Below the pieces are notes generated by a model. That model saw nothing but the letters and a program-made list of their open reading frames with translations. It was not told where the DNA came from and made no database searches. The translations under genes were made by a program, and so were the position numbers. 43,042 nucleotides of DNA from NCBI GenBank assembly GCA_902789515.1, contig CADAOK010000001.1:1-43042 (forward strand), in the 5' to 3' direction. The DNA comes from Oscillospiraceae bacterium (GTDB lineage Bacteria > Bacillota > Clostridia > Saccharofermentanales > Saccharofermentanaceae). Below, one piece after another: positions 13,734-40,572 of this stretch; position 1 is the stretch's first letter; each line of letters opens with the position of its first letter.

Positions 13734-14696
13734 ATGAAGATAGTTGTTGTCAGTTCCGTTATTGAGAAAGAACATAAAGACATGATCACCGCTGTTTCTG
13801 ACAGGTTCAATGCCGAAGTCTGCTTTACCGCTTCTGAGAATGATCTTCCGGAAGGGTTCGAAGAACCTGATGTGATCTACGGGTTTGGCCTGGGCATCGC
13901 GAAAAGGGACAAAAACCTCAAATGGCTGTGCGTTCCTTCCGCAGGTGTCGACTACCTGATGAAGCCCGGTGTATTTGCCAACGATGAATGCCTCATCAGC
14001 AATTCCTCCGGCTCATACGGAGTTACCATCGCAGAACACATAATTGCGGTGACCCTTATGATGATGCGCAGGATCACTTCATATTATGCTGAATCATTGA
14101 ACGGCAATTGGGAGCATAATCACTATCAGCAGGATTCGATCAAGGATTCACACATTACCGTGCTCGGTACCGGCGATATCGGAAACGAGTTTGCGAGAAG
14201 GGCGAGAGCTTTCGGACCGGCAAGGATAACAGGTGTGTGCCGCAGCGGAATCTGCGATGACCCGTCGTACGATGCTGTCTATAAGACCGACAGGCTTGAT
14301 GAGATCCTTCCGGAGACAGACCTTCTCGTGATGAGCCTTCCCGCAACGCCCGAGACTGACGATATCCTTAACCGCGCCCGTATCGCACTTCTCCCCCGTG
14401 GTGCCTATGTCGTTAATGTCGGCCGCGGGAATGCGGTCGATGAAGACGCTCTCGCGGATGCTCTGGACAGCGGACTCTTGGCCGGTGCCGCGCTCGATGT
14501 ATGCAAGACAGAGCCCCTGCCTGCAGCCAGCAGGTTGTGGAAGACGAAGAACCTGCTGATCACGCCACATGTCGCAGGCAATCTTACACTTAAGCACACG
14601 CTCGACAGGAATGTAGAGATGTTCTGCGAAGACCTGGAGAACTTCCTTGTCGGAAGACCACTGAAGTATGAGGTCAACCGGGAAAAAGGTTATTAA
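13734..14696 (+). CDS. D-2-hydroxyacid dehydrogenase (NAD-dependent)
   Basis: A 320-residue enzyme of the D-isomer-specific 2-hydroxyacid dehydrogenase family. The Rossmann loop is VLGTGDIGNEFARR (about residues 142-155). Catalytic parts are present: the Arg in VNVGRGNAVDEDAL, the Glu in ALDVCKTEPLP, and the His in LITPHVAGN. It reduces a 2-keto acid to the D-hydroxy acid; the substrate could be a branched or aromatic keto acid or glyoxylate-like compound, which sequence cannot decide. It stands alone with its own promoter. Family certain. Confidence 0.9.
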   Translation: MKIVVVSSVIEKEHKDMITAVSDRFNAEVCFTASENDLPEGFEEPDVIYGFGLGIAKRDKNLKWLCVPSAGVDYLMKPGVFANDECLISNSSGSYGVTIAEHIIAVTLMMMRRITSYYAESLNGNWEHNHYQQDSIKDSHITVLGTGDIGNEFARRARAFGPARITGVCRSGICDDPSYDAVYKTDRLDEILPETDLLVMSLPATPETDDILNRARIALLPRGAYVVNVGRGNAVDEDALADALDSGLLAGAALDVCKTEPLPAASRLWKTKNLLITPHVAGNLTLKHTLDRNVEMFCEDLENFLVGRPLKYEVNREKGY

Positions 14697-14709: not shown

Positions 14710-14892
14710 AGTTACCCAATTGGGTAAGTCCTGAGGGTAACTATTTACCATTTTGTAGACAACAGCACCTGTATTCAACATCAGAGTTACCCAGATGGGT
14801 AACTCCTTAGGGTAATAATTTATTCTTTTGTAATCGACGACAACAATATTCACTTCTGAAGTTACCCAATTGGGTAAGTCTTGAGTGTAACT
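14710..14892 (+). repeat. 75-bp tandem repeat with palindromic cores (about 2.4 units)
   Basis: The core AGTTACCC-AATT-GGGTAA starts at 14710, 14785 and 14860, exactly 75 bp apart. The first and third cores contain the perfect 16-bp palindrome TTACCCAATTGGGTAA (14712-14727, 14862-14877); the second has TTACCCAGATGGGTAA. A further GGGTAA(C) lies exactly 25 bp into each unit (14735, 14810; GTGTAAC at 14885), so GTTACCC can pair with either of two partners. The 40-45 bp linkers have diverged heavily but keep TTTTGTA and TATTCA. No ORF explains it. It fills most of the 260-bp gap between a plus-strand and a minus-strand gene end. Confidence 0.85.
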
Positions 14893-14909: not shown

Positions 14910-14935
14910 AAGAGCCGGCCATAAGACCGGCTCTT
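14910..14935 (-). terminator. Terminator of the transglutaminase-ChW gene
   Basis: AAGAGCCGG and CCGGCTCTT form a 9-bp stem with an 8-nt loop, followed on the minus strand by TTTGCTT. It lies 21 bp past the minus-strand stop at 14957. It could also serve the plus strand. Confidence 0.6.
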
Positions 14936-14956: not shown

Positions 14957-17107
14957 TTAGAATCCTTCAACGAAAGCCACGGATGTTACAGATGTGATTC
15001 CGCAGTAGGTATCTGAAGGCGCAGGTGAACCCTTAGGCACGAGGACGATCTGGATGCCTTCGAGCCTTGCGGATCTTCCTGCCGTTCCGGCACACTCACC
15101 GTTCTTTGCCCACGAGAGCCAGCCGATATCCTGAGCATGTACCCTGTAGTAGATGTCATAGTATTCCGCGACTTCGCCATACAGCTCGATCTGGATGCCT
15201 TCAAGCCTGAGAGCCTGACCCTGGGTTCCGCTCATCTCGCCGTCCTGAGACCAAGAACCCTCCCAGCCGATGTTCTGGACATGAGTCTTATACTTGATCC
15301 CGCCGGAGTACTGGCAGCCGGAGAGGAATATCTCGATACCCTCGAGTCTCTTGGACTGTCCGCTCGTACCGCTCATCGCGCCATCAGAAGCATATGAACC
15401 TTCCCATCCAAAGTCCTGAACATGAACCCTGTACTTAACGGACATTGAAGAATCAGCACCTATAGGCAAGATCTTGATCTTGATCTGTTCGATCCTCTTG
15501 GATTCGCCTGTGGTACCCGCGAGTGCGCCGTCATGGACCCAGCCCTGTGCGTCGCCGTAATCCTCGATATGAACGCAGTAAACGACTGAATAATACTTCG
15601 CCAGATCGCCTGTGAGGCGGATCTCGATCGCTTCGATACGCTTCGACATACCTTCCGTTCCGGCAGGCTGTCCGGCATCAACCCAGTCAAGCCATCCGAG
15701 ATCCTGAACATGGACTCTGTACTGAAGACTGCCTGAATATGCCGTGGTATTTACAAAGCCGATAGTAATCTCTTCGAGCCGCTTGCCCATTCCGGTCGTT
15801 CCAAGCGTCAGGACACCTGAAGCATCAGGCGAATAGCCTACATTTCCGATATCCTGCACATGCGCAAGACCGCTGGTCAGGGCTACGGTATCAGGCTGGA
15901 TCGTAGGAACATAGTCTGTTGAAGCGATCGCAAGTGCCGACTCCGGATAGAAATCCAGTGTCTTCTGCTTGTACGGGTAGTATGAACCGTCTGCAAGATA
16001 ATATCCGCCGTAAACACTTCCGGTTGCTCCGATCAGAAAATAATCATTGGGGCGAATATCATTATTCGTAACATCCACGATGTAGTTATTTCCGCCTATA
16101 TGAACGATATTCCACATATGTCCGCCGCTGTTTGTACTCGAATACTGAACGACGCCGGATACAGTCAAAACATACAGGTTCACATCATTAAAAGTGGATT
16201 TGTCACACAGGTATTTGAAAGCCTTGGCATAACCTTCGCAGACAACATTAGTGGAAGAGTCACCGTCAAAGACCCATACAAGCTGCCAGGGATTGCCGTA
16301 AGGAATGCTGTCATCATCCGCCGCGGTGTGATTATACTCGACCAGATCACAGATCTTGTCATTATAGGCAAGGAGTTTATCGTAATCGTTAAGAGCCGCA
16401 TAGGTGTTGATGATGCTGTTGGCATTGGATGATGCTGTCTTGACAGACTGGCCGTATTTGGAATCAACAATATACTGGTTGTTAGAATATCTGTATTCCT
16501 GCTCGACCACGTATTTGAAAGTAAATCCTGATACGGTTACGCTCGAAGCGTTGTATGACAGATCATAAGTAAAAGCTGAACCGATCTCTTTGTCGAACCA
16601 GTACAGATCGAACGGACAGGAGTTCAGAAGCGCCTGATTGATCTCTGAACGGTTGATCGGAAGCCGCTCGGCAACCTTTGTCTTCATCTCGGAAACATTG
16701 CTGCGAAGGTTGCTGATCCCGAGTTCGGATGCTGTAAAAGTATAAGAGAACTCTTCCGGGAGTGTGATCACAGTACTTGTGATATCACCTGCAGCGATCT
16801 TTGAGATCTGACTCTTAATGTAATTATATGCCGCAGCATTGTCGGTGCTCAGGACAGACGCATAGTTATAGACGGCATAGCAGACATCATCGTCGTCTGA
16901 CATTTCGCTGAGGATATACTGTTCGGCCAGTTCATCGTTATCATAATCCGATGTTACCGTCATCGTCTCTTCGACTGTTATGGTCTCGACTGTATCATCA
17001 CCGTTGTCTGACGCATCAGCCGAATCAGCATTTACATATGTCCCGTAGGCAAAAGCCATCAGGATCGTAACGAAAATTCCCGTTAATGCTTTGAGGTTCT
17101 GTCTCAT
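14957..17107 (-). CDS. Secreted transglutaminase-like protein with six ChW repeats
   Basis: A 716-residue exported protein. Residues 1-30 are a signal peptide (hydrophobic core LTGIFVTILMAFAYG). An acidic stretch and an all-purpose N-terminal domain follow (about 55-200). Residues about 235-370 form a transglutaminase/protease-like core with the catalytic triad visible as C290 (NVVCEGYAKAF), H330 (GGHMWNIV) and D345 (YIVDVTN). Six ChW repeats start near 412, 462, 510, 560, 605 and 653, each with HVQDxGW and GTxGxSKRLExI marks. ChW repeats are clostridial surface modules thought to bind carbohydrate or protein at the cell surface. The C-terminus YCGITSV...FVEGF recurs in 22422-24560. Probable role: cell-surface protein crosslinking or peptide cleavage. 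Ribosome site GGGGAG is strong. Confidence 0.9.
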   Translation of the reverse strand: MRQNLKALTGIFVTILMAFAYGTYVNADSADASDNGDDTVETITVEETMTVTSDYDNDELAEQYILSEMSDDDDVCYAVYNYASVLSTDNAAAYNYIKSQISKIAAGDITSTVITLPEEFSYTFTASELGISNLRSNVSEMKTKVAERLPINRSEINQALLNSCPFDLYWFDKEIGSAFTYDLSYNASSVTVSGFTFKYVVEQEYRYSNNQYIVDSKYGQSVKTASSNANSIINTYAALNDYDKLLAYNDKICDLVEYNHTAADDDSIPYGNPWQLVWVFDGDSSTNVVCEGYAKAFKYLCDKSTFNDVNLYVLTVSGVVQYSSTNSGGHMWNIVHIGGNNYIVDVTNNDIRPNDYFLIGATGSVYGGYYLADGSYYPYKQKTLDFYPESALAIASTDYVPTIQPDTVALTSGLAHVQDIGNVGYSPDASGVLTLGTTGMGKRLEEITIGFVNTTAYSGSLQYRVHVQDLGWLDWVDAGQPAGTEGMSKRIEAIEIRLTGDLAKYYSVVYCVHIEDYGDAQGWVHDGALAGTTGESKRIEQIKIKILPIGADSSMSVKYRVHVQDFGWEGSYASDGAMSGTSGQSKRLEGIEIFLSGCQYSGGIKYKTHVQNIGWEGSWSQDGEMSGTQGQALRLEGIQIELYGEVAEYYDIYYRVHAQDIGWLSWAKNGECAGTAGRSARLEGIQIVLVPKGSPAPSDTYCGITSVTSVAFVEGF

Positions 17108-22421: not shown

Positions 22422-24560
22422 TTATCCTACGGGTTCGTCAAACCCTTCAACGAAGCACATGGGGTCAACAGATGTGATACCCATATATGTGTTGCCGGGA
22501 ACCGGTTCGCCCTTGGGAACCAGAACGATCTGGATAGCTTCGAGTCTTGCTGACCTTCCGGCTGTTCCCGCAGGATCACCATTGCAGGCCCATGAGAGCC
22601 ATCCGATATCTTCAGCATGTACTCTGTAGTAGACATCATAGTAATCTGCGATCTCACCGTACAGTTCGATCATGATGCCTTCGAGCCTCTTGGACTCACC
22701 CTGGGTGCCGCTCATCTCGCCGTCATAAGACCATGAGGTCTCCCAGCCGTAATCCTGGACGTGAGTCTTATAACGGATGCCGCCGGAATACTCCAATCCC
22801 TCGAGGCAGATCTCAATACCCTCAAGTCTCTTGGCCTGACCGCTGGTACCGCTCATCTCACCGTCATACGCATATTCACTCTCCCAGCCAAAATCCTGGA
22901 CATGTACTCTGTACTTAACATATGTATAGTCTTCCCAACCCTGGGGTACGATCCAGAGCGTGATCTCTTCGATCCTCTTGGATTCGCCTGTCGTTCCGGC
23001 AAGAGCGCCATCCTTTACCCAGCCCTGGTTGTAACCGTAATCCTGGATATGGACACAATATTCAACTGAATAATAATCAGCAAGCTCGCCGGTCAGTCTC
23101 ATCTCGATTGCTTCGATACGCTTGGATTGGCCGCTGGTTCCGGCAGGGCTGCCTGCATCGACCCAATCCATCCAGCCGATATCCTGAACATGAACTCTGT
23201 ACTGAAGTGTTCCTGAATAAGGTGTCGGGTTTGTGAAATTGATCGTTATAGATTCAAGCCGCTTGCCCTCTCCGACTGTGCCAAGTGTCAGGAATCCTTC
23301 GCTGTCAACTGTTGATGTGACATTACCCTTATCCTGGACATGCGCAACACCGGTCGAAAGGAAATCTTCCGGCTGAGCCTGCTGTATCGGAACATCAACT
23401 TCGACCGGAGTGGAGGCATAATCTGTCTCATATGCAGAATCACTGGTCAGTTCGCCAATAATATATACATGATAAGATGAACCCCACTCATTCAGATCAA
23501 GGCCGGTTGAACCGAAATCAAAAGCAAAGTCGTATATAGACTCATTATAAAGATCATCATAAAAAAGGATCTGCGCACCGGAAGTTCCGTATTCTTTGTC
23601 GAGGATAAGAACAGATGTCCTGGAATAGTTGTAACCCTCAGTATAGAGATATACATAAGAGCCATCTATGAACGGAGCAACATCTTCCGGAATATAGCAT
23701 TCAATACTGTCATCCAATAATGTGAGCTTATACTCTGTACCGGCAGCCCCCATATCGCCGCTGACGGCTGTAGAGAACATGATCGATGACTGCTTTATGT
23801 TCATTGCGGGTGCAACGCCGATCGCATCTGTACTTGAGACAGTTTCGCCGGATATCTCACCGCTACTGTCAACTGAGCATGCGAGCTGGGTAGATGACTG
23901 AATGATCGAACGGAGCCACCAATTGCCGTTAGCAGCACCGGTCTTGATCTTGTTATTGCACCGCTCATCCGAGACACTGTATCCGTAGGAGATATTAGAT
24001 GCGTCTTCAGCATCAAGGACGAAGACCTTCTCACCGGTCAGTGCAATGTAGTTCTTAACATAATTTGCTGTCCAGTTGGACACTTTTCCTGCGGTCGTTC
24101 CCTCCTGATATGTGTGAGAGGATATTTTGCTGCTTGCGATGGCATCCTGCTCAACGTCCGTGAATCCGATCAGGAAATCGTTATTAAGATACTCTTTGAG
24201 ATCGCTTCCTTTCCATTTGTTTGATGCATTATCAAATTCCGAACTGAACAGAACGGTATCACAGTCAAGGAACAGGCACTTGGAAGAAGTGTGTACGGTG
24301 GATCCTTTGGCAAGAACCCTGTATTTGATTGGGTTGCCTTCATAGGTGCCGAAATACACATAGCTTCCGGACCAATACGATGAATCACTGGCAGGCTTGG
24401 ACGGCTTGGTTATTCCGGATACCCCGAGACAGGTGTTGCTCTTATTCTTGACGGTATCTGCCATAACGGTATTGCCGAACAGATTCGGCAGCAATGCGAC
24501 TGCAAATGATGCCGCAAGAGTCGCTGCAGTAAACTTCTTAAGTATGGTTTTGACTTGCAT
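22422..24560 (-). CDS. Secreted DUF6273-like protein with six ChW repeats
   Basis: A 712-residue exported protein. A signal peptide covers residues 1-34 (KKFTAATLAASFAVALLP, TVMADT). Residues about 63-262 resemble DUF6273: SYVYFGTYEGNPIKYRVLAKG, KWKGSDLKEYLNNDF and NWWLRSI are the familiar marks; the function of that domain is unknown. A linker domain (about 280-398) is followed by six ChW repeats starting near 402, 453, 500, 549, 594 and 642. The ending TYMGITSVDPMCFVEGF matches that of 14957-17107. It is presumably a cell-surface or secreted adhesion or carbohydrate-binding protein. AGGGAGG precedes ATG. Confidence 0.88.
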   Translation of the reverse strand: MQVKTILKKFTAATLAASFAVALLPNLFGNTVMADTVKNKSNTCLGVSGITKPSKPASDSSYWSGSYVYFGTYEGNPIKYRVLAKGSTVHTSSKCLFLDCDTVLFSSEFDNASNKWKGSDLKEYLNNDFLIGFTDVEQDAIASSKISSHTYQEGTTAGKVSNWTANYVKNYIALTGEKVFVLDAEDASNISYGYSVSDERCNNKIKTGAANGNWWLRSIIQSSTQLACSVDSSGEISGETVSSTDAIGVAPAMNIKQSSIMFSTAVSGDMGAAGTEYKLTLLDDSIECYIPEDVAPFIDGSYVYLYTEGYNYSRTSVLILDKEYGTSGAQILFYDDLYNESIYDFAFDFGSTGLDLNEWGSSYHVYIIGELTSDSAYETDYASTPVEVDVPIQQAQPEDFLSTGVAHVQDKGNVTSTVDSEGFLTLGTVGEGKRLESITINFTNPTPYSGTLQYRVHVQDIGWMDWVDAGSPAGTSGQSKRIEAIEMRLTGELADYYSVEYCVHIQDYGYNQGWVKDGALAGTTGESKRIEEITLWIVPQGWEDYTYVKYRVHVQDFGWESEYAYDGEMSGTSGQAKRLEGIEICLEGLEYSGGIRYKTHVQDYGWETSWSYDGEMSGTQGESKRLEGIMIELYGEIADYYDVYYRVHAEDIGWLSWACNGDPAGTAGRSARLEAIQIVLVPKGEPVPGNTYMGITSVDPMCFVEGFDEPVG

Positions 24561-25905: not shown

Positions 25906-25999
25906 ATGTGATTCCTCCCTTGGATGTTAGATAGTAACAGTATAGCGGTTTTACAAGAATATAACTGTTAATTTTGTATTGCGGAGTTTTCCAAAGAAA

Positions 26000-26168
26000 T
26001 TCCAGATTAACTCCCCGCTATGCAGGGACATATTCTGGAAATAACGCCAATACTGCCGGTATTTCCGGAAATCATTCCAGACTATGCAGGGACAAATTCT
26101 GGAAAAAACAGTGATTTGACTGATTATTCCAGATATTGTTCCAGACTATACGGGAACAGAATCTGGAA
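26000..26168. repeat. 64-bp tandem repeat with TTCCAGA/TCTGGAA arms (3 units)
   Basis: The core CTATGCAGGGACA begins at 26018 and 26082, with the variant CTATACGGGAACA at 26146: exactly 64 bp apart. Each unit ends in TCTGGAA (26034, 26098, 26162) and has the inverse arm TTCCAGA upstream (26000; 26075; 26127 and 26139), so each can fold into a hairpin. Spacers between units are not conserved except for degenerate TTCC...A blocks. It fills the 276-bp gap between the rubrerythrin start and the glycoside phosphorylase stop. No ORF of its own. Confidence 0.85.
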
Positions 26169-31265: not shown

Positions 31266-32063
31266 TCAATCGCCGTTGATCTGATCGTTGATCTCTGCTG
31301 TTGAAGGGAGACCGTCATCATCATCAGCTATAGTTACTACCGGTGCCGGCTGAACCAAACCATTAAGGTTTGTAGCACCATCTGTCGTTTCAAAGAATCT
31401 GACAGTAATAGTTACATAAGTGGCCTTCTTTCCGACCAGAGGTGTTACGGTCGCAGTAGGCTGTGGAGCTTCTTCCACTTCAGCCGTCTCTGCGGTGTCA
31501 ACATCAGTTTCGCCTTCCTCAGTTGCTTCAATATCAGCGGGGACCTCGACAGGCTCAGGTGTTGGGGTAACTTCCGGCTGTATGATTGTTGCGACCGAAT
31601 CCTCATTCATGGACATATCAACAATGAGCAGTGTGTATTCACAGTCGGCGATAGCCTTGATAAGGTCACCTGCCTCCTCATAGCTATCCGCCGTAAATGA
31701 TATGGTTACATCTCTTCTGACGATCGTGCCGGTAAGTTCAGGGTCACTCCATGTGATCGAAATATAGTTGGCATTGCCGACAAGGATATCGTTAAGTGCG
31801 AGGATCTCCGCACTCTGGTTGTTGTATACAGCCAAAATGGATGTATTATCATCACCGTTCTCGAGTTCAGCCTGCATCTTCTTAAGCTTGAAGGCTTTCT
31901 GCTCCTCGAGTAAGATTTCATCCTCAATCTCGAGCGTGCTATAACTTGCTACCTGGTTTTCAAACCACTGATAAACCACATAGTAATATACATATCCAAT
32001 AACGACCGCTATAAGTAAAAGGATTACGCCGGCTTCACGAGCCGTGAATTTATGATTAAGCAT
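31266..32063 (-). CDS. pilO: PilO-like type IV pilus assembly protein
   Basis: A 265-residue bitopic protein with a short cytoplasmic start, one membrane segment (about residues 10-32, AGVILLLIAVVIGYVYYYVVY), a coiled coil (about 40-70, TLEIEDEILLEEQKAFKLKKMQ) and a PilO-like ferredoxin fold. The fold is interrupted at about residues 166-212 by an acidic, Pro/Thr-rich insert (TPTPEPVEVPADIEATEEGE and on) before the final strand ATYVTITVRFFE. PilO pairs with PilN to link the pilus motor to the envelope. Identification leans on its place after pilM and pilN and on topology; direct similarity to classical PilO is weak. Last gene of the operon, 1 bp from pilN. Confidence 0.7.
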   Translation of the reverse strand: MLNHKFTAREAGVILLLIAVVIGYVYYYVVYQWFENQVASYSTLEIEDEILLEEQKAFKLKKMQAELENGDDNTSILAVYNNQSAEILALNDILVGNANYISITWSDPELTGTIVRRDVTISFTADSYEEAGDLIKAIADCEYTLLIVDMSMNEDSVATIIQPEVTPTPEPVEVPADIEATEEGETDVDTAETAEVEEAPQPTATVTPLVGKKATYVTITVRFFETTDGATNLNGLVQPAPVVTIADDDDGLPSTAEINDQINGD

Positions 32064-32064
32064 C

Positions 32065-32706
32065 TTAGTTCACCTCGCTTTCTGAGGTATCTTCTGTATT
32101 CCAAACAATCTTATATGTGGCATCAACGGTATAAGTCTTACCGCTCGTCTCATCATCATTCTGCTGATCTGAAGTCATAACTTTTGCAGTATATATCCTG
32201 TTATCATTTTGAAGATTGCTGAGCACCGTGCTGACAGTAACAAAATCAGCCTGATTTGCTGTAATGCTGATCTCATTGTCAGCTGAAACATTAACCGTTA
32301 TGTTGTCGAGATAAGGAACGACGTCATCATTGAGCATATCGATGATCTCTTTACGGTTGGAATATTCCAATTCCTCATCGGTGTAATACATCTCGACACG
32401 GGAATTGTACTCTTCCTCGATATCAGCCATAGCTTCATTCTGTTCTTTCAATTCATTAAGCTCATCCTGAGCCTGCCTGAACTGCATCTCTGCTTCATCG
32501 ATTCGCTGCAGCTGCTTGATGACACCGAAGTAGATGAAGACCAGAAGGGCCGCCATGAACAAAGCAAAGATTGCAAGAGCTTTTCCGTCCGAACTCTTCT
32601 TCTCGTGCTTGATGAAATTGATAACTTCCTTATCGGGATACTTGCCTTTCTTTGTACCACCGATAGGCTTGTTTAAAGGGTTTCCACCCTGCGTATTATT
32701 ACTCAT
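32065..32706 (-). CDS. pilN: PilN-like type IV pilus assembly protein
   Basis: A 213-residue bitopic protein. The cytoplasmic N-terminus contains EVINFIKHEKK (about residues 27-37), recalling the INLLP motif by which PilN binds PilM. One membrane segment (about 43-65) is followed by a coiled coil (EAEMQFRQAQDELNELKEQNE) and a PilN-type ferredoxin-like domain (YLDNITVNVSADNEISITANQA). PilN and PilO form a periplasm-facing or, here, wall-facing dimer coupling PilM to the filament. Overlaps the 3' end of pilM by 8 bp. Starts at ATG with GGGAGG upstream. Confidence 0.75.
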   Translation of the reverse strand: MSNNTQGGNPLNKPIGGTKKGKYPDKEVINFIKHEKKSSDGKALAIFALFMAALLVFIYFGVIKQLQRIDEAEMQFRQAQDELNELKEQNEAMADIEEEYNSRVEMYYTDEELEYSNRKEIIDMLNDDVVPYLDNITVNVSADNEISITANQADFVTVSTVLSNLQNDNRIYTAKVMTSDQQNDDETSGKTYTVDATYKIVWNTEDTSESEVN

Positions 32707-33700
32707 ACCTACCTCCCAGCTTCATTCCGATCGCGACAGCTGCGAGTCCGTCGTTAAGCGAGTCGCGAACATTGTATTTGGAATCATTGCCAAGGAACTT
32801 TATGATGTTCAGAGGCACCGCATTCTTGATGGCATCCTCGAACTGCTTATATCTCGCACCTCCGCCGTAGATATAGAAGTTGTCGAGAGTGTTCTCGGGA
32901 TTCTCAAAGGTATAGTAGTTGACGGCTCTCATGACCTCGACTGCGATGCTGTCGAAAACGCCTCTTACCTGTTCGCTGTCAAGGACACCCTTCTCGTTCT
33001 CGCGCATCCTCATCCTTGCCGAATGGGATTCACACTTGAGGAATGAGCCTGCAGCTGCTTCGACATGAGCCATACCGAGTTCGATCGTTCTTGTAAGGTC
33101 ATATACACCGCCCTTGTAGATATCGATCTTGGTAAACTCGTAACCCAAATCAAGCGTGGCAAAATCCTTGTCCTTGTCAAAGGGAGATACAGCCTGGATG
33201 AGCTTGCCGGTCGAAATAACTCTGGGAGCGACCTTGACCAGCCTGAATCCGTTTCTTGCAAAAACATCCTTAAGCTTATCGATGAGTTCCTTGCTTGCCG
33301 CCGCAGCAGTCATATCAAGGAGCTCGTTATTTCCGTCAGAAGATCTTCCGATTATCGAATAATCGAAGATGAAGCTGTCGGCATTATCCTTAACGATATC
33401 ATGGAATTCATAAGGAAGATTTACGGCAAGCTGTTGCTCCGTCATAAGCGGCATCTTAAGCCTTCTGATATAGCACTGAGAGTCCGGCAGGACCAGAGCC
33501 ACATCATGAGTCTTGAAGCGCTTTCTAACCGCATCATGAAGGAAATCACCCAACGCCTCATATGCGATTATCTCCTCGCCCCTTACGAGATTGCCCGGCA
33601 TGTCAAAGACATCGAAGTCTTTGAGATGGCCGTTCTTCCACTCAGCCGCTTTAAGGCTGTAGTTGCCGATATCGATTCCAAGTACACTGCTCTTACCCAA
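32699..33700 (-). CDS. pilM: PilM type IV pilus actin-like ATPase
   Basis: A 333-residue actin-fold protein. Phosphate 1 motif is VLGIDIGNYSLKAAEW at the N-terminus, phosphate 2 is FATLDLGYEFTKIDIYKGG, and the adenosine motif is NFYIYGGGARYKQFE. PilM is a cytoplasmic ring or adaptor that binds PilN's N-terminus and links to the PilB-PilC motor. It starts with TTG at 33700, 8 nt after a perfect AGGAGG that lies within the end of pilD. The gap to pilD is 4 bp. Confidence 0.88.
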   Translation of the reverse strand: MGKSSVLGIDIGNYSLKAAEWKNGHLKDFDVFDMPGNLVRGEEIIAYEALGDFLHDAVRKRFKTHDVALVLPDSQCYIRRLKMPLMTEQQLAVNLPYEFHDIVKDNADSFIFDYSIIGRSSDGNNELLDMTAAAASKELIDKLKDVFARNGFRLVKVAPRVISTGKLIQAVSPFDKDKDFATLDLGYEFTKIDIYKGGVYDLTRTIELGMAHVEAAAGSFLKCESHSARMRMRENEKGVLDSEQVRGVFDSIAVEVMRAVNYYTFENPENTLDNFYIYGGGARYKQFEDAIKNAVPLNIIKFLGNDSKYNVRDSLNDGLAAVAIGMKLGGRYE

Positions 33701-33704
33701 AATC

Positions 33705-34505
33705 TTATCCTCCTATCAAACTAAAATACATATTAAGAAGTGTGCCTCCAAAAACGAGGCTTATAACAGTCGCGATAGATATTGCAGGTGCAAATGCAAT
33801 CTTCTTCTTTTGTGAGATCGCTACGAAGATCAAGCCGATAACACTTGCAAGGAACATTGTCAGAACACCGCGGTATAGCCCGGTAAACAGCATACAGCAG
33901 GCAAAGAGCTTAACATCGCCCATTCCAAGAGTGCTCTTCTTAAGAGCCTTGTTAAGCAATGCGGATACAGCAAGAAGTATCCCGGGGATAACAACAGCCG
34001 CCAGAACACCGTCAAGTGCGTAGGCAGCAGTATCAGGCATAAATCCGACGAACAGGATCCAAACGATCAGCATAGCAAGAAGGAAGCCGTCCGGGATGAT
34101 GTGATTATCAAAGTCGGCAAGTGAGAGCCCCAATAATATCACTTCCAACACCAGCGTTTGGATAACCATAGGATCTACCGCCCTGTTGAATGCCAGTGTA
34201 CCGACAAACACAAATCCCAGAACGATCTCAAAGATAACATCTCTGGCAGGAACCTTCGCCCCGCAATAACGGCACTTACCCTTGAGTGCCAGCCAAGAGA
34301 TGACCGGGATAAGGTCTAATGTCGACAGTTCATGACCGCAGGAATCACAGTGGCTGTGCCCCTTTGTCCAGTCTTCGCCAATGACAACACGGCATGCAGT
34401 GCAGGTAATAAAGCTTGCAAAAACCGCCCCGAACGCAAAAGCGATCACGAGCAGGTATACTGTCGCGAAGGTATTATCAGCAAATAAAGGATAAACCAGA
34501 TTCAA
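33705..34505 (-). CDS. pilD: PilD type IV prepilin peptidase / N-methyltransferase
   Basis: A 266-residue membrane aspartyl protease, with about eight membrane segments. The cytoplasmic zinc-binding loop has CDSCGHELS and CRYCG; catalytic aspartates are in LADFDNHIIPDG and LGMGDVKLFA (the GxGD motif). It cleaves prepilins after the conserved Gly and methylates the new N-terminus. The frame stays open 25 residues upstream of my start, but these overlap pilC. The TTG at 34505 has GGAGG 7 nt upstream, so it is the true start. It lies 13 bp after pilC. Confidence 0.92.
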   Translation of the reverse strand: MNLVYPLFADNTFATVYLLVIAFAFGAVFASFITCTACRVVIGEDWTKGHSHCDSCGHELSTLDLIPVISWLALKGKCRYCGAKVPARDVIFEIVLGFVFVGTLAFNRAVDPMVIQTLVLEVILLGLSLADFDNHIIPDGFLLAMLIVWILFVGFMPDTAAYALDGVLAAVVIPGILLAVSALLNKALKKSTLGMGDVKLFACCMLFTGLYRGVLTMFLASVIGLIFVAISQKKKIAFAPAISIATVISLVFGGTLLNMYFSLIGG

Positions 34506-34518
34506 ATGATGACCTCCA

Positions 34519-35730
34519 TCAGAACAGATCGTACATAGTAAACATCGGCAGATAGATCGATATGACAATGAATCCCGCAAACAGAGCCAGGAAGATCATC
34601 ATTGCCGGTTCGAGTTTTGCCAGCGCCTTGGTTGTCGCATTGTCATACTCGCTCGTATAGTAAACGCCGATCGTCTTAAGAGATGTCTCGAGTGATCCGG
34701 TCTTGTCACCTACCGCAATCATCGTCTTCAGGATGTCCGGGAAATAGGGACTCTGGTTCACAGCTTCAACCATTGTCTTACCAGTCCTGATCTTGTCGAC
34801 CATCGCATATACTTCCCTCTTGTAGATATAATTATCCATTACCTTGGCAGTCGTCTCGAGAGCCTTGTCGATAAGGATTCCCGAATCAAGCAGAGAAGAC
34901 AGCGTATCAGCAAACTGCTCGCATGCATGCAGGACCTGGATATTACCGAGGATCGGAAGCTTAAGCGATACTCTTGACCACCAGAGCTTGCCCGCTTCAT
35001 TATGGGTAATCACCTTGAAAGCGACGAAGATGATCGCAAACCCGATAAACAGTGCAAACCAGTAGTTCTGGAAGAACTGCGAAGTAACGATAAGTATCTT
35101 AGTAATGACAGGAAGCTCGCCGCCCATGTTAGTAAATGTCTCGGTAAGGCTCGGAACAACGAAGGCCATTATGACGATCAGAACAACGATCGCAACACAG
35201 AGAACAAAGAGAGGATAAGACATTGCAGACTTGAGTTTCTTCTTTACCTTATCGGACTTAAGATAGAATTCCTCGAGAGATTCGAAGGACTTTACCAGAT
35301 TGCCGGAGACTTCTCCGGCACGGATAGTCTCAAAGAAAGTCACAGGGAAATCCGGACAGTTCTTCTCGAATGATTTTGCTATTGAATTACCCTGGTTAAT
35401 ATCTTCTGATGTCTTAGTAAGCTCTTTCTTGAGCTGCTTCTTCTTTGTCTGTTCGGCAACCATTGTTATGCACTGACCGATGGAGACACCGGCTTTGAGG
35501 ATGATGGCGCACTGCTGGCAGAGAAGTGCGAGATCCTGCCCTGTAAGACTCTTCGTGAGCTCGAAACCCAGGATATCATCCAGCTTTGTCTTCTTGATGA
35601 TGGTGCAGGTCTCAACGATTGGGTAATTGACCTTGATCTTGCTTATGGCATCATACTGATCTGATGCCTCAACAACACCCTTGTGCTTGCTTCCGTCATA
35701 AGCCTGAGCTGTATACTTATATGAATCCAA
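34519..35730 (-). CDS. pilC: PilC/GspF inner-membrane platform protein
   Basis: A 403-residue protein with two GspF domains. N-terminal YKYTAQAYDGSKHKGVVEASDQ is the usual opening; LALLCQQCAIILKAGVSIGQCI and FADTLSSLLDSGILIDKALE mark the two repeats, and SYPLFVLCVAIVVLIVIMAF and the C-terminal IFLALFAGFIVISIYLPMF are membrane segments. PilC carries ATPase motion to pilin subunits. It starts with TTG at 35730, 8 nt after AAGGAG, and lies 13 bp after pilB. Confidence 0.94.
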   Translation of the reverse strand: MDSYKYTAQAYDGSKHKGVVEASDQYDAISKIKVNYPIVETCTIIKKTKLDDILGFELTKSLTGQDLALLCQQCAIILKAGVSIGQCITMVAEQTKKKQLKKELTKTSEDINQGNSIAKSFEKNCPDFPVTFFETIRAGEVSGNLVKSFESLEEFYLKSDKVKKKLKSAMSYPLFVLCVAIVVLIVIMAFVVPSLTETFTNMGGELPVITKILIVTSQFFQNYWFALFIGFAIIFVAFKVITHNEAGKLWWSRVSLKLPILGNIQVLHACEQFADTLSSLLDSGILIDKALETTAKVMDNYIYKREVYAMVDKIRTGKTMVEAVNQSPYFPDILKTMIAVGDKTGSLETSLKTIGVYYTSEYDNATTKALAKLEPAMMIFLALFAGFIVISIYLPMFTMYDLF

Positions 35731-35743
35731 GACTTATTCTCCT

Positions 35744-37429
35744 TTATTCAATAGTAGGTATTACCTTGAGAAGTTCCTCGGGAGTCGTCTCACCCTGACG
35801 GACAAGATCACGGCCGTTCTCGATCATTGATGTGAATCCTGTATTGGCAAGGAAGTGTCTGAGTTCCGAACCATTCTTGCCGGCACTTATCGCATCTCTG
35901 AGTTCCGCAGTAACCTGCATGATCTCGAATACGCCGGTCCTTCCTCTGAAACCGGACCCAAAGCATCTCTCACATCCCTTGCCCTTGTAATATACCGTAC
36001 CGTCATCCTCCATTCCGATAAGAGAAAGAGTAAACGGATCCGGTTTTACGGGCATCTTGCAGTTCGGGCAGACCTTTCTGACAAGTCTCTGCGAGATAAC
36101 GCCTCTCAAAGAACCCGCGATAAGATAGGGCTCTGCCCCCATATCACGGAGTCTGTCGATAGCGGATACCGCATCCTCAGTGTGGATAGTCGAGAGCACG
36201 AGGTGTCCTGTCATGGCAGCTCTCATCGCAATCTCGGCCGTCTCGCCGTCACGGATCTCTCCGACACAGATGATATCCGGGTCCTGCCTGAGGCATGCCC
36301 TCAGGGCGCTGGCAAATGTAAGTCCGGTCTTCTCGTTGATGGCAACCTGCGTAACGCCAGCAATCTGGAACTCGACCGGGTCTTCGAGCGAGATGATATT
36401 GACCGTCTCGCTGATAAGCTCATGGATCATGGTATAGAGCGTCGATGTCTTACCTGAACCCGTAGGACCAACGATAAGGATGATTCCCGCAGAGTTCTTC
36501 AGGATCCTGTCGAAACGCTCATTATCCTTGTCAGTAATGCCGATGGCGTGGCGGTTCAGAGTGCTCTGCTCACGCATCAGTATTCTTATAACCACCTTCT
36601 CACCGAAGATGGTGGGAAGCGTATTTAGTCTCAAGTCAATCTGTGTTCCGTCCTGACGCTTGATTACGGCACGTCCGTCCTGAGGGATACGTCTCTCGGT
36701 AATGTTCATGCCCGCCATGACCTTAAGTCTGGAGATAACAGAATTCTGGAGTTCTCTCGGAACTTCCATCATGGTATTGAGTCTGCCATCGACTCTGATC
36801 CTGACCTTCATCTCCTTCTCATAAGGCTCGAAGTGTATATCTGAAGCCTTCTCAGCTATGGCTCTCTCGATAAGTGAATTGACGAGCTTGACTGTAGGAG
36901 CAGCAGTCTCGTCGTCATTTGCAGCCATCTCATCACTTAGATCATCTACAGTGATAGTAGTCTGTTCTTCCTTCATCTGCTCGATGGCGCGCGCTGCGCC
37001 TTCGTTCTCATAGAGTACAGACAGAGCTCTCGTGATGGCATCGTAGTAAGCGATCATCGGTATGACACGGCGTCCTGTCATCTGGCGCACAGCTTCGACC
37101 GCACGGAAGTTCATCGGATCTTCCATTGCGATATAGAGGTTATTACCTTCAACCTTTACCGGGATAAGCCTGTATGTACGTGCGGTATCCTTTGGAACGA
37201 TCTCAACTAAAGTCGGGTCGATGCTTGCCTTGTTAAGGTCTATGAACTCAACACCTAACTGCATCCTTAGGGTCTCAACGAACTGTTTCTCTGAGATTAT
37301 CCCCTCGTCGATAAGATATGTACCGAGTCTCTTACCTGTTTCCTTCTGACCTGCAAGTGCCGCCTGCAGCTGTTCTTCAGTAATTGCGCCGGAATCTACC
37401 AGCATCTCACCCAATCTTTTGTTCTTCAC
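35744..37429 (-). CDS. pilB: PilB/GspE type IV pilus assembly ATPase with MshEN domain
   Basis: A 561-residue hexameric ATPase driving pilus extension. The N-terminus holds two 24-residue motifs RLGxxLxxxGxIxxxxxxxxLxxQ (residues 5-28 and 34-57) separated by exactly five residues, the layout of the c-di-GMP-binding MshEN domain. The catalytic core has Walker A GPTGSGKT at 321-328, the Walker B region DPDIICVGEIRD, and the His box LSTIHTEDAVSAIDRL. A zinc site is C454, C457, C486, C489. It starts with GTG, 11 nt after AAGGAG. No PilT retraction ATPase is in the window. Confidence 0.95.
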   Translation of the reverse strand: MKNKRLGEMLVDSGAITEEQLQAALAGQKETGKRLGTYLIDEGIISEKQFVETLRMQLGVEFIDLNKASIDPTLVEIVPKDTARTYRLIPVKVEGNNLYIAMEDPMNFRAVEAVRQMTGRRVIPMIAYYDAITRALSVLYENEGAARAIEQMKEEQTTITVDDLSDEMAANDDETAAPTVKLVNSLIERAIAEKASDIHFEPYEKEMKVRIRVDGRLNTMMEVPRELQNSVISRLKVMAGMNITERRIPQDGRAVIKRQDGTQIDLRLNTLPTIFGEKVVIRILMREQSTLNRHAIGITDKDNERFDRILKNSAGIILIVGPTGSGKTSTLYTMIHELISETVNIISLEDPVEFQIAGVTQVAINEKTGLTFASALRACLRQDPDIICVGEIRDGETAEIAMRAAMTGHLVLSTIHTEDAVSAIDRLRDMGAEPYLIAGSLRGVISQRLVRKVCPNCKMPVKPDPFTLSLIGMEDDGTVYYKGKGCERCFGSGFRGRTGVFEIMQVTAELRDAISAGKNGSELRHFLANTGFTSMIENGRDLVRQGETTPEELLKVIPTIE

Positions 37430-37453
37430 GTCCGTTTCCGCTCCTTAAATATG

Positions 37454-38263
37454 TTATGGATTGCTTGTATTTGTATTAGGCAACAGTGTGTCAGGACACA
37501 CTTCGACATATTGCTTCATGATTACTTCTTTTGTATTCGCATCGATAACATAAACCCAAAACTTGAATAATTTATCAGTATTGTCCCACGTAATAGCCTC
37601 CGCGGTCATTTTCCCTTTCGCATAAGTTTGTCCAACTTCCAAAGATCCATCGCCGACTATCGAGTACATATCTGTTCCCTGCATAATATTTTGGGCAATA
37701 ATATACTTTCTGTTGGAATAATCCTTAGTAGAAAAAAACTTGGAAATATCTATACCTGAAGTCGGATCGGCAAGTGTGGGAGCAGCAACATTGGAGTACT
37801 TATATCCAACGCAGATACCAAGATTATTCTTATCTTTCGATTCATTGGTTGCGTTCCAATATTGTATCAAGGGAGGATTACAGGTCGTTGTTGCAACTGT
37901 ATTGTAAGAGTTATCACGGATTATTACATTAATGTATCTGGATGCACCGGAATCCAATTGAAAGAAGTCTGAACCCATAGCAGATGTTGAATTTGTCATT
38001 GGATAGTATTCATGTGAACAATCCATAGTATGGGGGTCCGTAACACCATTAAGATCTTTGCGGAGATAATTCACTGTTGCGATCATAATCATCTCAGCCT
38101 GGTTCTGCCTCTCTATGATGTCCCTTGTATGATTCAGCACAACAAGACCACCGATTGCAGTAGTTGCAACAAAGGCCATAAGGCCAACCGATATCAACAG
38201 TTCAGAAAGAGTAAAACCCTTTCTGCTGATATTCTTATTTCTGTTGCTGTTCATTAGTCGCAT
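37454..38263 (-). CDS. PilW-like minor pilin (type IV prepilin)
   Basis: A 269-residue prepilin. The leader ends NISRKG and is followed by FTLSELLISVGLMAFVATTAIGGLVVL, so PilD cleavage should fall after Gly16 with Glu at +5. The rest is a large globular domain without recognisable motifs, as expected for PilW/PulJ-like minor pilins that sit at the pilus tip. It lies between the other minor pilins and pilB. Confidence 0.88.
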   Translation of the reverse strand: MRLMNSNRNKNISRKGFTLSELLISVGLMAFVATTAIGGLVVLNHTRDIIERQNQAEMIMIATVNYLRKDLNGVTDPHTMDCSHEYYPMTNSTSAMGSDFFQLDSGASRYINVIIRDNSYNTVATTTCNPPLIQYWNATNESKDKNNLGICVGYKYSNVAAPTLADPTSGIDISKFFSTKDYSNRKYIIAQNIMQGTDMYSIVGDGSLEVGQTYAKGKMTAEAITWDNTDKLFKFWVYVIDANTKEVIMKQYVEVCPDTLLPNTNTSNP

Positions 38264-38286
38264 TAGTATATCCTTTATTCTGATCT

Positions 38287-38586
38287 TTACTTATGGGGAT
38301 CCATACCACTAATCTGGAATGTATACGGGGTTGGTTCCGGTGCAGGTGTTAACGGTATCGTTTCTTCTGGGTCTGGCAAATTCTTAAGATATTCTGCTTG
38401 TATTTCCTCATACTCATTGACTTTATCGTTGTATTGTTTGAACTTTTCACTGGAATCGTGCATAATGTCTGATCCGACCTTAACACCAGAGAACAACATA
38501 ATCATTGCAAAAGAGATTATCAGAGAAGCTATCAATAGCTCTGATAAGGATTCGCCGCATTTATAATTCTTTCTAGTAACCGTCAT
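38287..38586 (-). CDS. Small atypical prepilin-like protein (PilV/PulI position)
   Basis: A 99-residue protein with a pilin-like N-terminus: KCG, then ESLSELLIASLIISFAMIMLFSGVKVG. Cleavage would follow Gly11; Glu12 stands at +1 where Phe or another hydrophobic residue is usual, while Glu at +5 is kept. The helix is followed by an amphipathic stretch (EKFKQYNDKVNEYEEIQAEYL) and a Pro-rich tail (PDPEETIPLTPAPEPTP), with no globular domain. Length is short for PilV. Its position between the PilX-like and PilW-like genes suggests the PilV slot. Confidence 0.75.
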   Translation of the reverse strand: MTVTRKNYKCGESLSELLIASLIISFAMIMLFSGVKVGSDIMHDSSEKFKQYNDKVNEYEEIQAEYLKNLPDPEETIPLTPAPEPTPYTFQISGMDPHK

Positions 38587-38620
38587 GTATTACCTCTGAT
38601 CGATCAAATTACAATTCAAA

Positions 38621-39322
38621 CTAATTGGTATTCTTCAATGTAAAGCGCTTCTTGCCACCTGGATTTGACCACTTGAAATAGAATTTTCCGTCTTTTCCAT
38701 TATTAACAGTGTATTCCAATACTTGGTAGTATGTGCACTCCGGGTTTGCGGAAGAAACTGTCATCTTACAAGTATGAAACCTTAATCCATTATTCTTTAG
38801 GGAACCGTTAGTCCCGGTCATCTCAACAAGTACTTTCACTGTCGTTCCATTGATTACATAGGTAAATGGCACTGAGATGCTATCTCCATTAGTTACCGGC
38901 ACTTTACTATCACCATAGTACGAATGAATATAAGATAAAATCTCATATGTCATATTCTGCGGTTCATTGAAATAATCGGTAGAGATTCCTTGTTCTGCAG
39001 CTAAAAATCCGTTAAGGAAACTATAGTTCAGATTAGAGTAAACGGTATCTATCGCATCCACTTCGGTTTGGTATGCAGGATCCGGCTCAGGCGGCGGTGT
39101 AGGAGTAGGCGTTGGTGTTGGTGTCGGCGGAGGATCAAATGTCAGATTCTGGGCATAATTATAACTCTTCGATACACCTCTTGATGTGGAGCTTGCAAGA
39201 TATAATAGTCCGGCACACATCAACGAACAGACCATGAACAAGAACAGGGCGATCGCAAGCGATGAGCCCTCGCTTCTTTGTTTCATTGCTTTATTCGTAT
39301 CAACGTTGTGCTTCATGATCAT
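38621..39322 (-). CDS. PilX/GspK-like minor pilin with Pro-Thr linker
   Basis: A 233-residue protein. A polar start ends QRSEG, followed by the hydrophobic helix SSLAIALFLFMVCSLMCAGLL; as in GspK/PilX the Glu at +5 is missing. A Pro-Thr linker (DPPPTPTPTPTPTPPPEP, about residues 68-85) connects to a C-terminal domain with SYSFLNGFLAAEQGIST-like and other unfamiliar segments. Such proteins cap the pilus tip. ATG at 39316 is an alternative start. It lies 7 bp after the second pilin gene. Confidence 0.75.
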   Translation of the reverse strand: MIMKHNVDTNKAMKQRSEGSSLAIALFLFMVCSLMCAGLLYLASSTSRGVSKSYNYAQNLTFDPPPTPTPTPTPTPPPEPDPAYQTEVDAIDTVYSNLNYSFLNGFLAAEQGISTDYFNEPQNMTYEILSYIHSYYGDSKVPVTNGDSISVPFTYVINGTTVKVLVEMTGTNGSLKNNGLRFHTCKMTVSSANPECTYYQVLEYTVNNGKDGKFYFKWSNPGGKKRFTLKNTN

Positions 39323-39329
39323 TTACCTG

Positions 39330-39860
39330 TTATTTGATAAGGGATCCGGCTGAATACCAATCAAGTTTTAACGCAGGTTCTTCGAAAGTGCCTTTACTTC
39401 TGTTGGAAATAGTTGGATCGCTGTTATCATACTTATAATACCTTCCATCAAATGTGATCAAGATAACCTGGTCAGAATAATCAGTCCCGTTCGATACGCT
39501 TATTCCATAGCCTTCTATACTTGAAGCGTAACCATTATTAGAGAAATCCTGCACACCCGCATTGAAATTCAATACATATACCGCACTATTCTCGGCATCA
39601 TATAAGAACGTGCACACACCGGTTTCAGTGATATCTACTACTTTTCCTTTGCTGTCATATCCGGCATAAAAGGCAGATACAGCAGCAGCTTTTGCAGCTA
39701 ATTTCTGATCCTTTACTTGCTTGAGTTGATAATTCCTAAGAGCTCCGGAGAATATCGGAATGCTGACACCGGCAAGAATAATAGTGATAGCCACAACAAT
39801 CATAAGCTCCGCCAGTGTGAAGCCTCTTTTGTTCAGTTTGTGTTCTGCCATCATTTTCAT
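39330..39860 (-). CDS. Type IV pilin (second, pilE/pilA-like)
   Basis: A 176-residue class IVa-like prepilin. KLNKRG then FTLAELMIVVAITIILAGVSIPIFSGALRNYQLKQ gives cleavage after Gly13 and Glu at +5, with a long basic N-terminal helix. The globular part (ETGVCTFLYDAENSAVYVLNF) carries no clear disulfide pair. It heads the minor pilin and assembly gene operon, after a terminator that separates it from the major pilin. Several ATGs (39860, 39854, 39851) are possible starts. Confidence 0.88.
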   Translation of the reverse strand: MKMMAEHKLNKRGFTLAELMIVVAITIILAGVSIPIFSGALRNYQLKQVKDQKLAAKAAAVSAFYAGYDSKGKVVDITETGVCTFLYDAENSAVYVLNFNAGVQDFSNNGYASSIEGYGISVSNGTDYSDQVILITFDGRYYKYDNSDPTISNRSKGTFEEPALKLDWYSAGSLIK

Positions 39861-39875
39861 ATCCTGCCCACCCTA

Positions 39876-39890
39876 GTGACAGAGAGTCAC
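39876..39890. repeat. Short dyad ahead of the pilin/assembly operon
   Basis: GTGAC and GTCAC are separated by 5 nt, 16 bp upstream of the ATG at 39860 and downstream of an AT-rich TATAAT-containing stretch on the minus strand. It may be a leader hairpin or operator. Confidence 0.4.
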
Positions 39891-39964
39891 AATTATTTTT
39901 AATTATAATACAAAGTTGTCAGTTTTACTTAAGGTTTTGTAACAATTGGATTTCTTTGAAACAA

Positions 39965-39986
39965 AGGCCGGGCTATTGCCCGGCCT
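39965..39986 (-). terminator. Strong terminator after the major pilin gene
   Basis: AGGCCGGGC and GCCCGGCCT form a perfect 9-bp GC-rich stem with a 4-nt loop, followed on the minus strand by TTGTTT. It lies 47 bp past the pilA stop, so the pilin message ends here or only partly reads into the assembly genes. Confidence 0.85.
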
Positions 39987-40032
39987 CCGCTCTACTCAAG
40001 TATTAGTTTATAATGAACCAGTCAACTAAAAC

Positions 40033-40479
40033 TTATTCCCAAGAATATGTAAATGTCAACTCTCCTGTAGAAGCATCAGGCGCAACGACAATCTTAATTG
40101 CTTTACCGGATGCTACAGTGTTGTACTTATAACCTAAGTATTCATAAGTAGCGTCATTTGTACCCAGAGTGGCTGTTCCCTTACCATACTTAACAGCAGG
40201 TGCACCTGTACCAAGCTTACCAGCATCAGCATCATAATAAAGAGTAATAGAATCTGTTGCTGTACCACCGTTAAATGAAGCAAAACCATCATCAAGATAT
40301 GCTGCTGTTACTGCTGCCTTAGCTGCTCTGAGGTTAGCGATATCTGTAGACTCTCTGGACTTCTCGAGCTGTGTTGTGAAGATCGGGATTGAGATACCTA
40401 CGAGAACACCGATGATAGCTACAACGATCAGGAGCTCTGCGAGTGTGAAGCCCTTCTTGCTTGATCTAATCTTTTTCAT
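40033..40479 (-). CDS. pilA: Major type IV pilin
   Basis: A 148-residue prepilin. The leader MKKIRSSKKG is cleaved before FTLAELLIVVAIIGVLVGISIPIF, a textbook N-methylated pilin helix with Glu at +5. The globular part has Gly/Thr/Ala-rich loops (FNGGTATDSITLYYDADAGKLG) and no cysteine pair. The ATG at 40479 has AAGGAG upstream; the open frame extends 31 residues further into the promoter. It has its own strong promoter and terminator, consistent with being the most abundant subunit. It builds the pilus shaft for adhesion, motility or DNA uptake. Confidence 0.93.
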   Translation of the reverse strand: MKKIRSSKKGFTLAELLIVVAIIGVLVGISIPIFTTQLEKSRESTDIANLRAAKAAVTAAYLDDGFASFNGGTATDSITLYYDADAGKLGTGAPAVKYGKGTATLGTNDATYEYLGYKYNTVASGKAIKIVVAPDASTGELTFTYSWE

Positions 40480-40543
40480 AATCTTGTCTCCTTTCGAACC
40501 CTTTTTGAGTTTGTGTAGGGGGTCACCCTTGATTGATAATTCG

Positions 40544-40572
40544 ATAATAGTCGTCTGCCACATTCCTGTCAA
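40544..40572 (-). promoter_or_regulatory. Consensus promoter of pilA
   Basis: On the minus strand, perfect TTGACA (40567-40572), a 17-bp spacer and TATTAT (40544-40549). The RNA would start near 40537, leaving a leader of about 58 nt to the ATG at 40479 with a small GGG-TGA-CCC hairpin. No c-di-GMP riboswitch signature is seen in that leader. Confidence 0.85.

Follow-up and report, generated by a model that had tools for sequence, protein, structure and literature searches.

A dispersed family of three-core palindromic arrays of the general BIME/BOX kind in a genome of the Saccharofermentanaceae

Between two convergent genes in the window, i.e. the whole stretch of 43,042 nucleotides of DNA analysed here, a short palindrome occurs three times at a fixed distance. 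Is this the remnant of a chance duplication or one copy of an element that occurs elsewhere, and if the latter, what kind of recognition keeps its sequence? An earlier note on this DNA had described a core every 75 bp and a further half-site 25 bp into each unit, and both descriptions are exact: the cores (GTTACCC-N4-GGGTAA) begin at positions 14711, 14786 and 14861, and the additional half-sites at 14735, 14810 and 14885 (table 1). Written out more fully, the cores are three copies of AGTTACCC-N4-GGGTAA(G/C)T (from 14710, 14785 and 14860), and the core pattern has six matches in the window, i.e. both strands of the three palindromes, against 0.13 expected by chance. What the note had overlooked are a small second dyad (14744-14757 and 14819-14832) and a second array further along the window (25999-26168). 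Its picture of linkers changed almost beyond recognition does not fit the array itself, in which identity between units 1 and 2 is 75% across 68 nt and still about 48% in the linkers alone, but it does apply between different loci, where linker identity (31-38%) is near background.

Other parts of the window have features of their own. The convergent downstream gene (14957-17107) and a gene at 22422-24560 each encode a large secreted protein, and these two closely resemble one another in their C-terminal repeats; the ChW repeats were found in the former, and the latter is alike by eye. A type IV pilus or type II secretion-like cluster, also recognised by eye from its prepilin peptidase, ATPase and pilin-like proteins, extends from 31266 to 40572. 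From gene content alone, one may guess at a Clostridia lineage of the rumen or gut.

Table 1. Positions in the window of the features of the two arrays and of the surroundings of the first array.
Feature	Position	Strand	Basis
Upstream gene: D-2-hydroxyacid dehydrogenase-like protein, 320 aa; stops 14 bp before core 1	13734-14696	+	ORF, Pfam
Core dyad 1: AGTTACCC-AATT-GGGTAAGT	14710-14729	+	sequence; covariance-model match 48 bits
Third half-site, unit 1: GGGTAAC	14735-14741	+	sequence, unit alignment
Small second dyad, unit 1: TTTAC-N6-GTA	14744-14757	+	alignment of 14 full units
Core dyad 2: AGTTACCC-AGAT-GGGTAACT	14785-14804	+	sequence, covariance model
Third half-site, unit 2: GGGTAAT	14810-14816	+	sequence, unit alignment
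Small second dyad, unit 2, degenerate: TTTAT-N6-GTA	14819-14832	+	unit alignment
Core dyad 3: AGTTACCC-AATT-GGGTAAGT	14860-14879	+	sequence, covariance model
Third half-site, unit 3: GTGTAAC; array end	14885-14891	+	sequence, unit alignment
Terminator-like hairpin 3' of the array	14910-14935	+	terminator scan
Convergent downstream gene: 716 aa protein with five ChW repeats	14957-17107	-	ORF, Pfam
Second array, unit 1: outer ATTCCAGA/TTCTGGAA, loop CTATGCAGGGA	25999-26040	+	
Second array, unit 2; 64 bp after unit 1	26063-26104	+	
Second array, unit 3; 64 bp after unit 2; outer ATTCCAGAT/ATCTGGAAT, inner GTTCC/GGAAC	26127-26168	+	

Seven arrays with a common unit

Where the earlier note would have taken the lack of any similar array elsewhere in the genome as a sign of chance duplication, the window's genome (G000; 1.93 Mb in 163 contigs, 75.5% complete) contains seven arrays, all of them intergenic. 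These are C1 in the window, C71, C76, C83, C107 (on the minus strand), and C19a and C19b, which lie 4.5 kb apart on one contig (C19). A covariance model of the unit detected 21 cores in this genome, three in each array and none of them solitary. Units are arranged head-to-tail in all seven arrays, and the distance from core to core is 74 or 75 bp in 14 of 14 intervals. The element of which the window array is a copy is dispersed and intergenic, measures about 195 bp and has three palindromic cores in direct orientation. Three copies (C1, C19a and C19b) are located between convergent genes and four between co-directional ones. Their neighbours, annotated by Pfam or otherwise by reading the translations, are unrelated and include PNPase, a Na+/H+ antiporter, a methyltransferase, a YgjP-like peptidase, a DUF4011 helicase, an aspartokinase-like protein, a DUF3048 protein and a GH9-like cellulase.

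The common unit reads (TTACC)-N5/6-AGTTACCC-N4-GGGTAAGT-N4/5-GGGTAAC-N2-TTTAC-N6-GTA, followed by about 18 nt. The consensus of the 14 full units is AGTTACCCA.T.GGGTAA.T.....GGGTAAC..TTTAC...T..GTA......A..........TT.C, leaving about 18 free positions until the next core. All conserved blocks are variants of TTACCC or its reverse complement: an inner pair of half-sites stands four bases apart, an outer pair (TTACC ... GGGTAAC) is placed symmetrically around it, and a single unit contains variants of the half-site, in both orientations, at as many as six positions. At most loci, units 1 and 2 contain the small dyad TTTAC-N6-GTA, whereas none of the seven arrays has it after core 3. One-base changes in length occur at places that differ between loci, and the period is still 74-75 bp.

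When unit 1 is compared with unit 2 of the same locus, with the decayed C19a omitted, the half-site columns are identical at 151 of 168 positions (about 90%) and the spacers at 98 of 224 (about 44%), a contrast that is partly circular, and therefore supportive rather than independent, because the half-site columns were picked from the same alignment. The earlier note, however, had named the core and the half-site at +25 from C1 alone, and both proved valid at the other loci; its description of a core and spacing kept while the linker is lost is borne out across loci. Core identity within loci ranges from 56 to 97%. Free-linker identity is 0.48 within a locus and 0.31 between loci, and with unit order permuted as the comparison, unit number shows no common signal across loci, which leaves ancestry as whole elements unsupported. 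Units that are closer within a locus, together with a unit number that carries no shared signal, suggest that the arrays may be built or homogenised locally and may not move as whole elements. As a separate observation, the loop letters are the same in units 1 and 3 and different in unit 2 in four of the seven arrays (C1, C71, C76 and C19a, with the common loops AATT, ATTT, ATAT and TATT), as if the end units had been copied mutually. The end units are also the most similar pair in C1 and C76.

Occurrence in relatives and comparison with known repeats

The nearest relatives, G006 and G064, are 98% identical over a PNPase fragment and show 76-85% DNA identity in the C19 region. At the sites orthologous to C19a and C19b both of them have terminators only and no array, and the array is likewise absent downstream of PNPase in G006, i.e. 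at the C71 site. Between PNPase and a histidine kinase gene, G006 lacks both the C71 array and a 258-aa ORF beside it; this ORF (G000:C71:6589-7365, L033) has no Pfam match. With one mismatch allowed, none of 58 other species of the genus contains the motif, and the covariance model gave no confident match in 84 other species of the genus. Scanning GTDB (85k species) with the unit pattern returned one match, which is archaeal, single and unrelated, and scanning IMG/VR with the core pattern returned three single unrelated matches, among them a terminator-like hairpin and one that looks coding-like. No Rfam match was found in the window. The earlier note's remark that it knew no named element with this layout thus holds for the sequence of the window array but not for its general kind, which is known from REP/BIME and BOX elements.

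Interspersed palindromic repeats are explained mostly via RAYT transposases in Proteobacteria. In the genomes with arrays that were searched (G000, G083, G031 and G005), the Y1/RAYT transposase domain (Y1_Tnp, PF01797) had no match, with G000 being 75.5% and G005 99% complete. Within 8 nt of the 21 cores, the tags GTAG and GACG do not occur, and CTAC and CGTC occur once each. Target duplications consistent between array flanks were not detected, and the ends of the element are not sharply defined.

REP elements are short imperfect palindromes that form dimers at 20-100 bp spacing (PMC3733652, PMC8266576); with respect to REP, PMC3733652 mentions neither Firmicutes nor Clostridia. The G000 arrays share with REP/BIME the imperfect palindromes with a conserved mismatch, the intergenic location, the regular multi-copy arrays and the restriction of each family to a species. 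In contrast to REP/BIME, however, they have no GTAG/CGTC tag and no Y1/RAYT was found in the array-bearing genomes tested, their units are all head-to-tail whereas those of BIMEs alternate in inverted orientation, and they have a constant number of three units, a near-integral helical period and about 7-15 rather than hundreds of loci. Membership in the RAYT-linked REP/BIME families was therefore rejected, as the tag, a RAYT gene in the four array-bearing genomes and alternating orientation were all looked for and none was found. An integron attC site was also dropped as a candidate, since the GTT/AAC box ends point outward here (judged by eye against the attC consensus).

The BOX elements of Streptococcus are composite (boxA-boxB(n)-boxC), intergenic and probably non-autonomous mobile DNA (PMC3049150). 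In being composite, intergenic, present in Firmicutes and built of tandem internal modules, they are the nearest Firmicutes analogue in kind, but BOX has distinct boxA and boxC ends and a variable boxB count, whereas the G000 array uses the same dyad throughout and has three at all seven loci. Like MITE and Correia elements, the arrays are short inserts with inverted repeats that are absent from orthologous sites in relatives; they differ in having internal palindromes rather than one terminal pair, and no autonomous partner was found. CRISPR arrays are similar in their palindromic repeats and a period of about 60-75 bp, but the G000 repeats are non-identical, have conserved half-sites inside the 'spacer' and come as three units at seven dispersed places. 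Overall, the G000 arrays are interspersed palindromic repeats of the general BIME/BOX kind and members of neither family, and look like a class of interspersed, probably protein-bound repeats that is apparently undescribed.

RNA, folded single strand or double-stranded DNA

Pairing of the half-sites in RNA had been raised by the earlier note as an alternative to a DNA site, and covariation in the arms is what would speak for it. Within the family, however, the stems do not covary: pairs are kept in 82.1% of cases versus 82.4% in shuffles, and the one pair that has changed on both sides is at shuffle level. Moreover, a G.G mismatch leaves the stem base unpaired in 17 of the 21 cores. Terminators between the upstream gene and the array were found by scan at C71, C107 and C19b and by eye at C19a, i.e. 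at least three and probably four of the seven arrays are located beyond a terminator. With pairing at shuffle level, the mismatch kept and several arrays past a terminator, the RNA alternative finds no support. Transcribed arrays that fold as tandem hairpins, be it at mRNA 3' ends or as small RNAs, would account for a predicted RNA fold that is stabler than in shuffles on both strands (z -1.7 to -6.4) and for the position of the window array, which starts 14 bp past a stop codon and is followed by a terminator-like hairpin; yet any palindrome is expected to fold stably on both strands, and together with the points above and the lack of an Rfam match in the window, this makes an RNA element unlikely. 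A folded strand could also be one of DNA, and it is possible, if tentatively so, that the arrays resemble REPs in being elements that are not autonomous and whose imperfect hairpins, folded from a single strand, are bound by a transposase or recombinase from another family; the mismatch would then allow the two strands to be told apart, a role that the bulge has in E. coli REPs. The nested imperfect palindromes with their retained mismatch, the species-private families that are missing at orthologous sites, and the REP biology described in PMC8266576 and PMC3733652 are consistent with such a substrate. On the other hand, Y1_Tnp is missing from all four genomes searched, a GTAG/CGTC tag stands beside at most one of the 21 cores, and a hairpin needs neither the outer, inner and extra half-sites nor a constant spacing of 74-75 bp.

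Two further readings concern double-stranded DNA. Palindromic dyads with half-sites at near-helical spacing are what the operators of an ordinary transcription regulator might look like, in this case a regulon with triple operators, but three of the seven arrays are flanked by convergent genes, where there is no promoter that they could control, the flanking genes have no common theme, and the same gene pairs occur in the closest species without arrays, all of which renders operator arrays improbable. Still further down the scale stands a chance or neutral tandem duplication without function or family. Tandem duplication is common and units are indeed alike within a locus, but the recurrence of the array at seven loci, with the same core, the same core number and the same spacing, contradicts such an origin, and so does the retention of half-sites amid diverged spacers.

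The best reading, to which we assign a probability of about 0.5, is that the arrays are BIME/BOX-like interspersed repeats whose dyads are kept not as RNA structure but as helically phased, putative protein-binding sites. In repeats that are dispersed, follow one fixed plan and retain their half-sites, the cores would, as we infer from these patterns, be kept by contact with a sequence-specific, oligomeric DNA-binding protein, possibly of a nucleoid-associated, recombinase-like or transposase-like kind. This protein would contact several copies of the TTACCC/GGGTAA half-site on one face of the DNA, and the copies would have been spread by a mobile or recombination process other than the RAYT route. 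Recognition of the double strand by a protein is favoured over RNA or a folded single strand because the half-site recurs at as many as six places and in both orientations, which is not required by a fold alone, because pairing is not maintained by compensatory change, because several arrays (C71, C107, C19b and C19a) lie behind terminators and outside any evident transcript, and because the period is constant and near-integral in helical turns. Nested hairpins and a conserved mismatch, however, also fit a single-stranded DNA substrate and count against this reading.

Array families with other sequences and the helical period

The second array in the window consists of three nested-palindrome units and is flanked by rubrerythrin-like and large phosphorylase-like genes. 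Its period is 64 bp. Within G000, relatives of one unit each occur at C40 and C79; G005 has weak relatives with two units, and the units of the second array align with a 54-bp family of G083. This latter family is present at about fourteen loci, where the number of units ranges from one to at least three and the period is 54 bp; its unit, TTTCCCGG-N4-GTTCCCT-N6-AGGGAAGT-N5-GGGAAA, shows by eye the same inner/outer plan and the same AAGT asymmetry as the 74-75-bp unit of G000. Further families in G083 have a period of 53 bp, one of them with about seven copies. One seven-copy 53-bp array in this genome (CGTCAACAGA...TCTGTTGACG) is located at L252:19335-19759, and at L260:18837-19331 a GACCACAG array with alternating 53- and 64-bp steps directly adjoins a TTTCCCGG array.

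G005 has a private 63-bp family with four loci of one to three units, and further unrelated palindromes with periods of 61, 61, 62, 62, 62-63, 64 and 64 bp. About eight sequence-unrelated tandem palindrome families, all with periods of 61-64 bp, can be seen in this genome (L242-L249, L199, L303, L305, L307), some of them side by side within one intergenic region. In G031, GTTACCT-type cores occur at one locus, 62 bp apart. A de novo search of 1.12 Mb sampled from seven other species (G006, G017, G020, G001, G040, G067 and G050) yielded no recognisable intergenic palindrome array, its few matches being a tRNA pair, coding-like repeats and single weak ones, which indicates that the phenomenon is patchy.

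With a search range of 36-160 bp, the array periods detected are 53-54, 61-64 and 74-75 bp, i.e. approximately 5, 6 and 7 turns of 10.5 bp, and a step of 117 bp in G083 can be read as 53 + 64. The earlier note's remark that 75 bp is close to seven helical turns gains strength from these other arrays of the genus, which are also near whole turns. A Rayleigh test over 15 families gave R of about 0.8, with similar values for any step of 10-11 bp, but families within one genome share a period and are not independent in this test; a uniform simulation with five genome-level period modes gave p = 0.0003. Counting three distinct clusters, the helical-turn periodicity is suggestive at best and should be taken as a lead only. 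A wider proposal would be that the genus has a class of intergenic arrays defined by geometry rather than sequence, with two to seven nested palindromes, families unrelated in sequence and a genome-typical period of 5, 6 or 7 turns, kept or spread by a putative DNA-binding or recombining machine that measures helix distance and co-evolves with its sites. We consider this speculative and rather doubtful.

G000 has a palindromic repeat family for which no RAYT was found and which is fixed at three dyads, and related species have arrays of other sequences whose periods are likewise close to whole turns. A functional role of the spacing would suggest a protein that reads the geometry of DNA. Since the array-bearing species seem each to own their motifs, the genus could serve as a natural series for studying how a binder and its sites change together.
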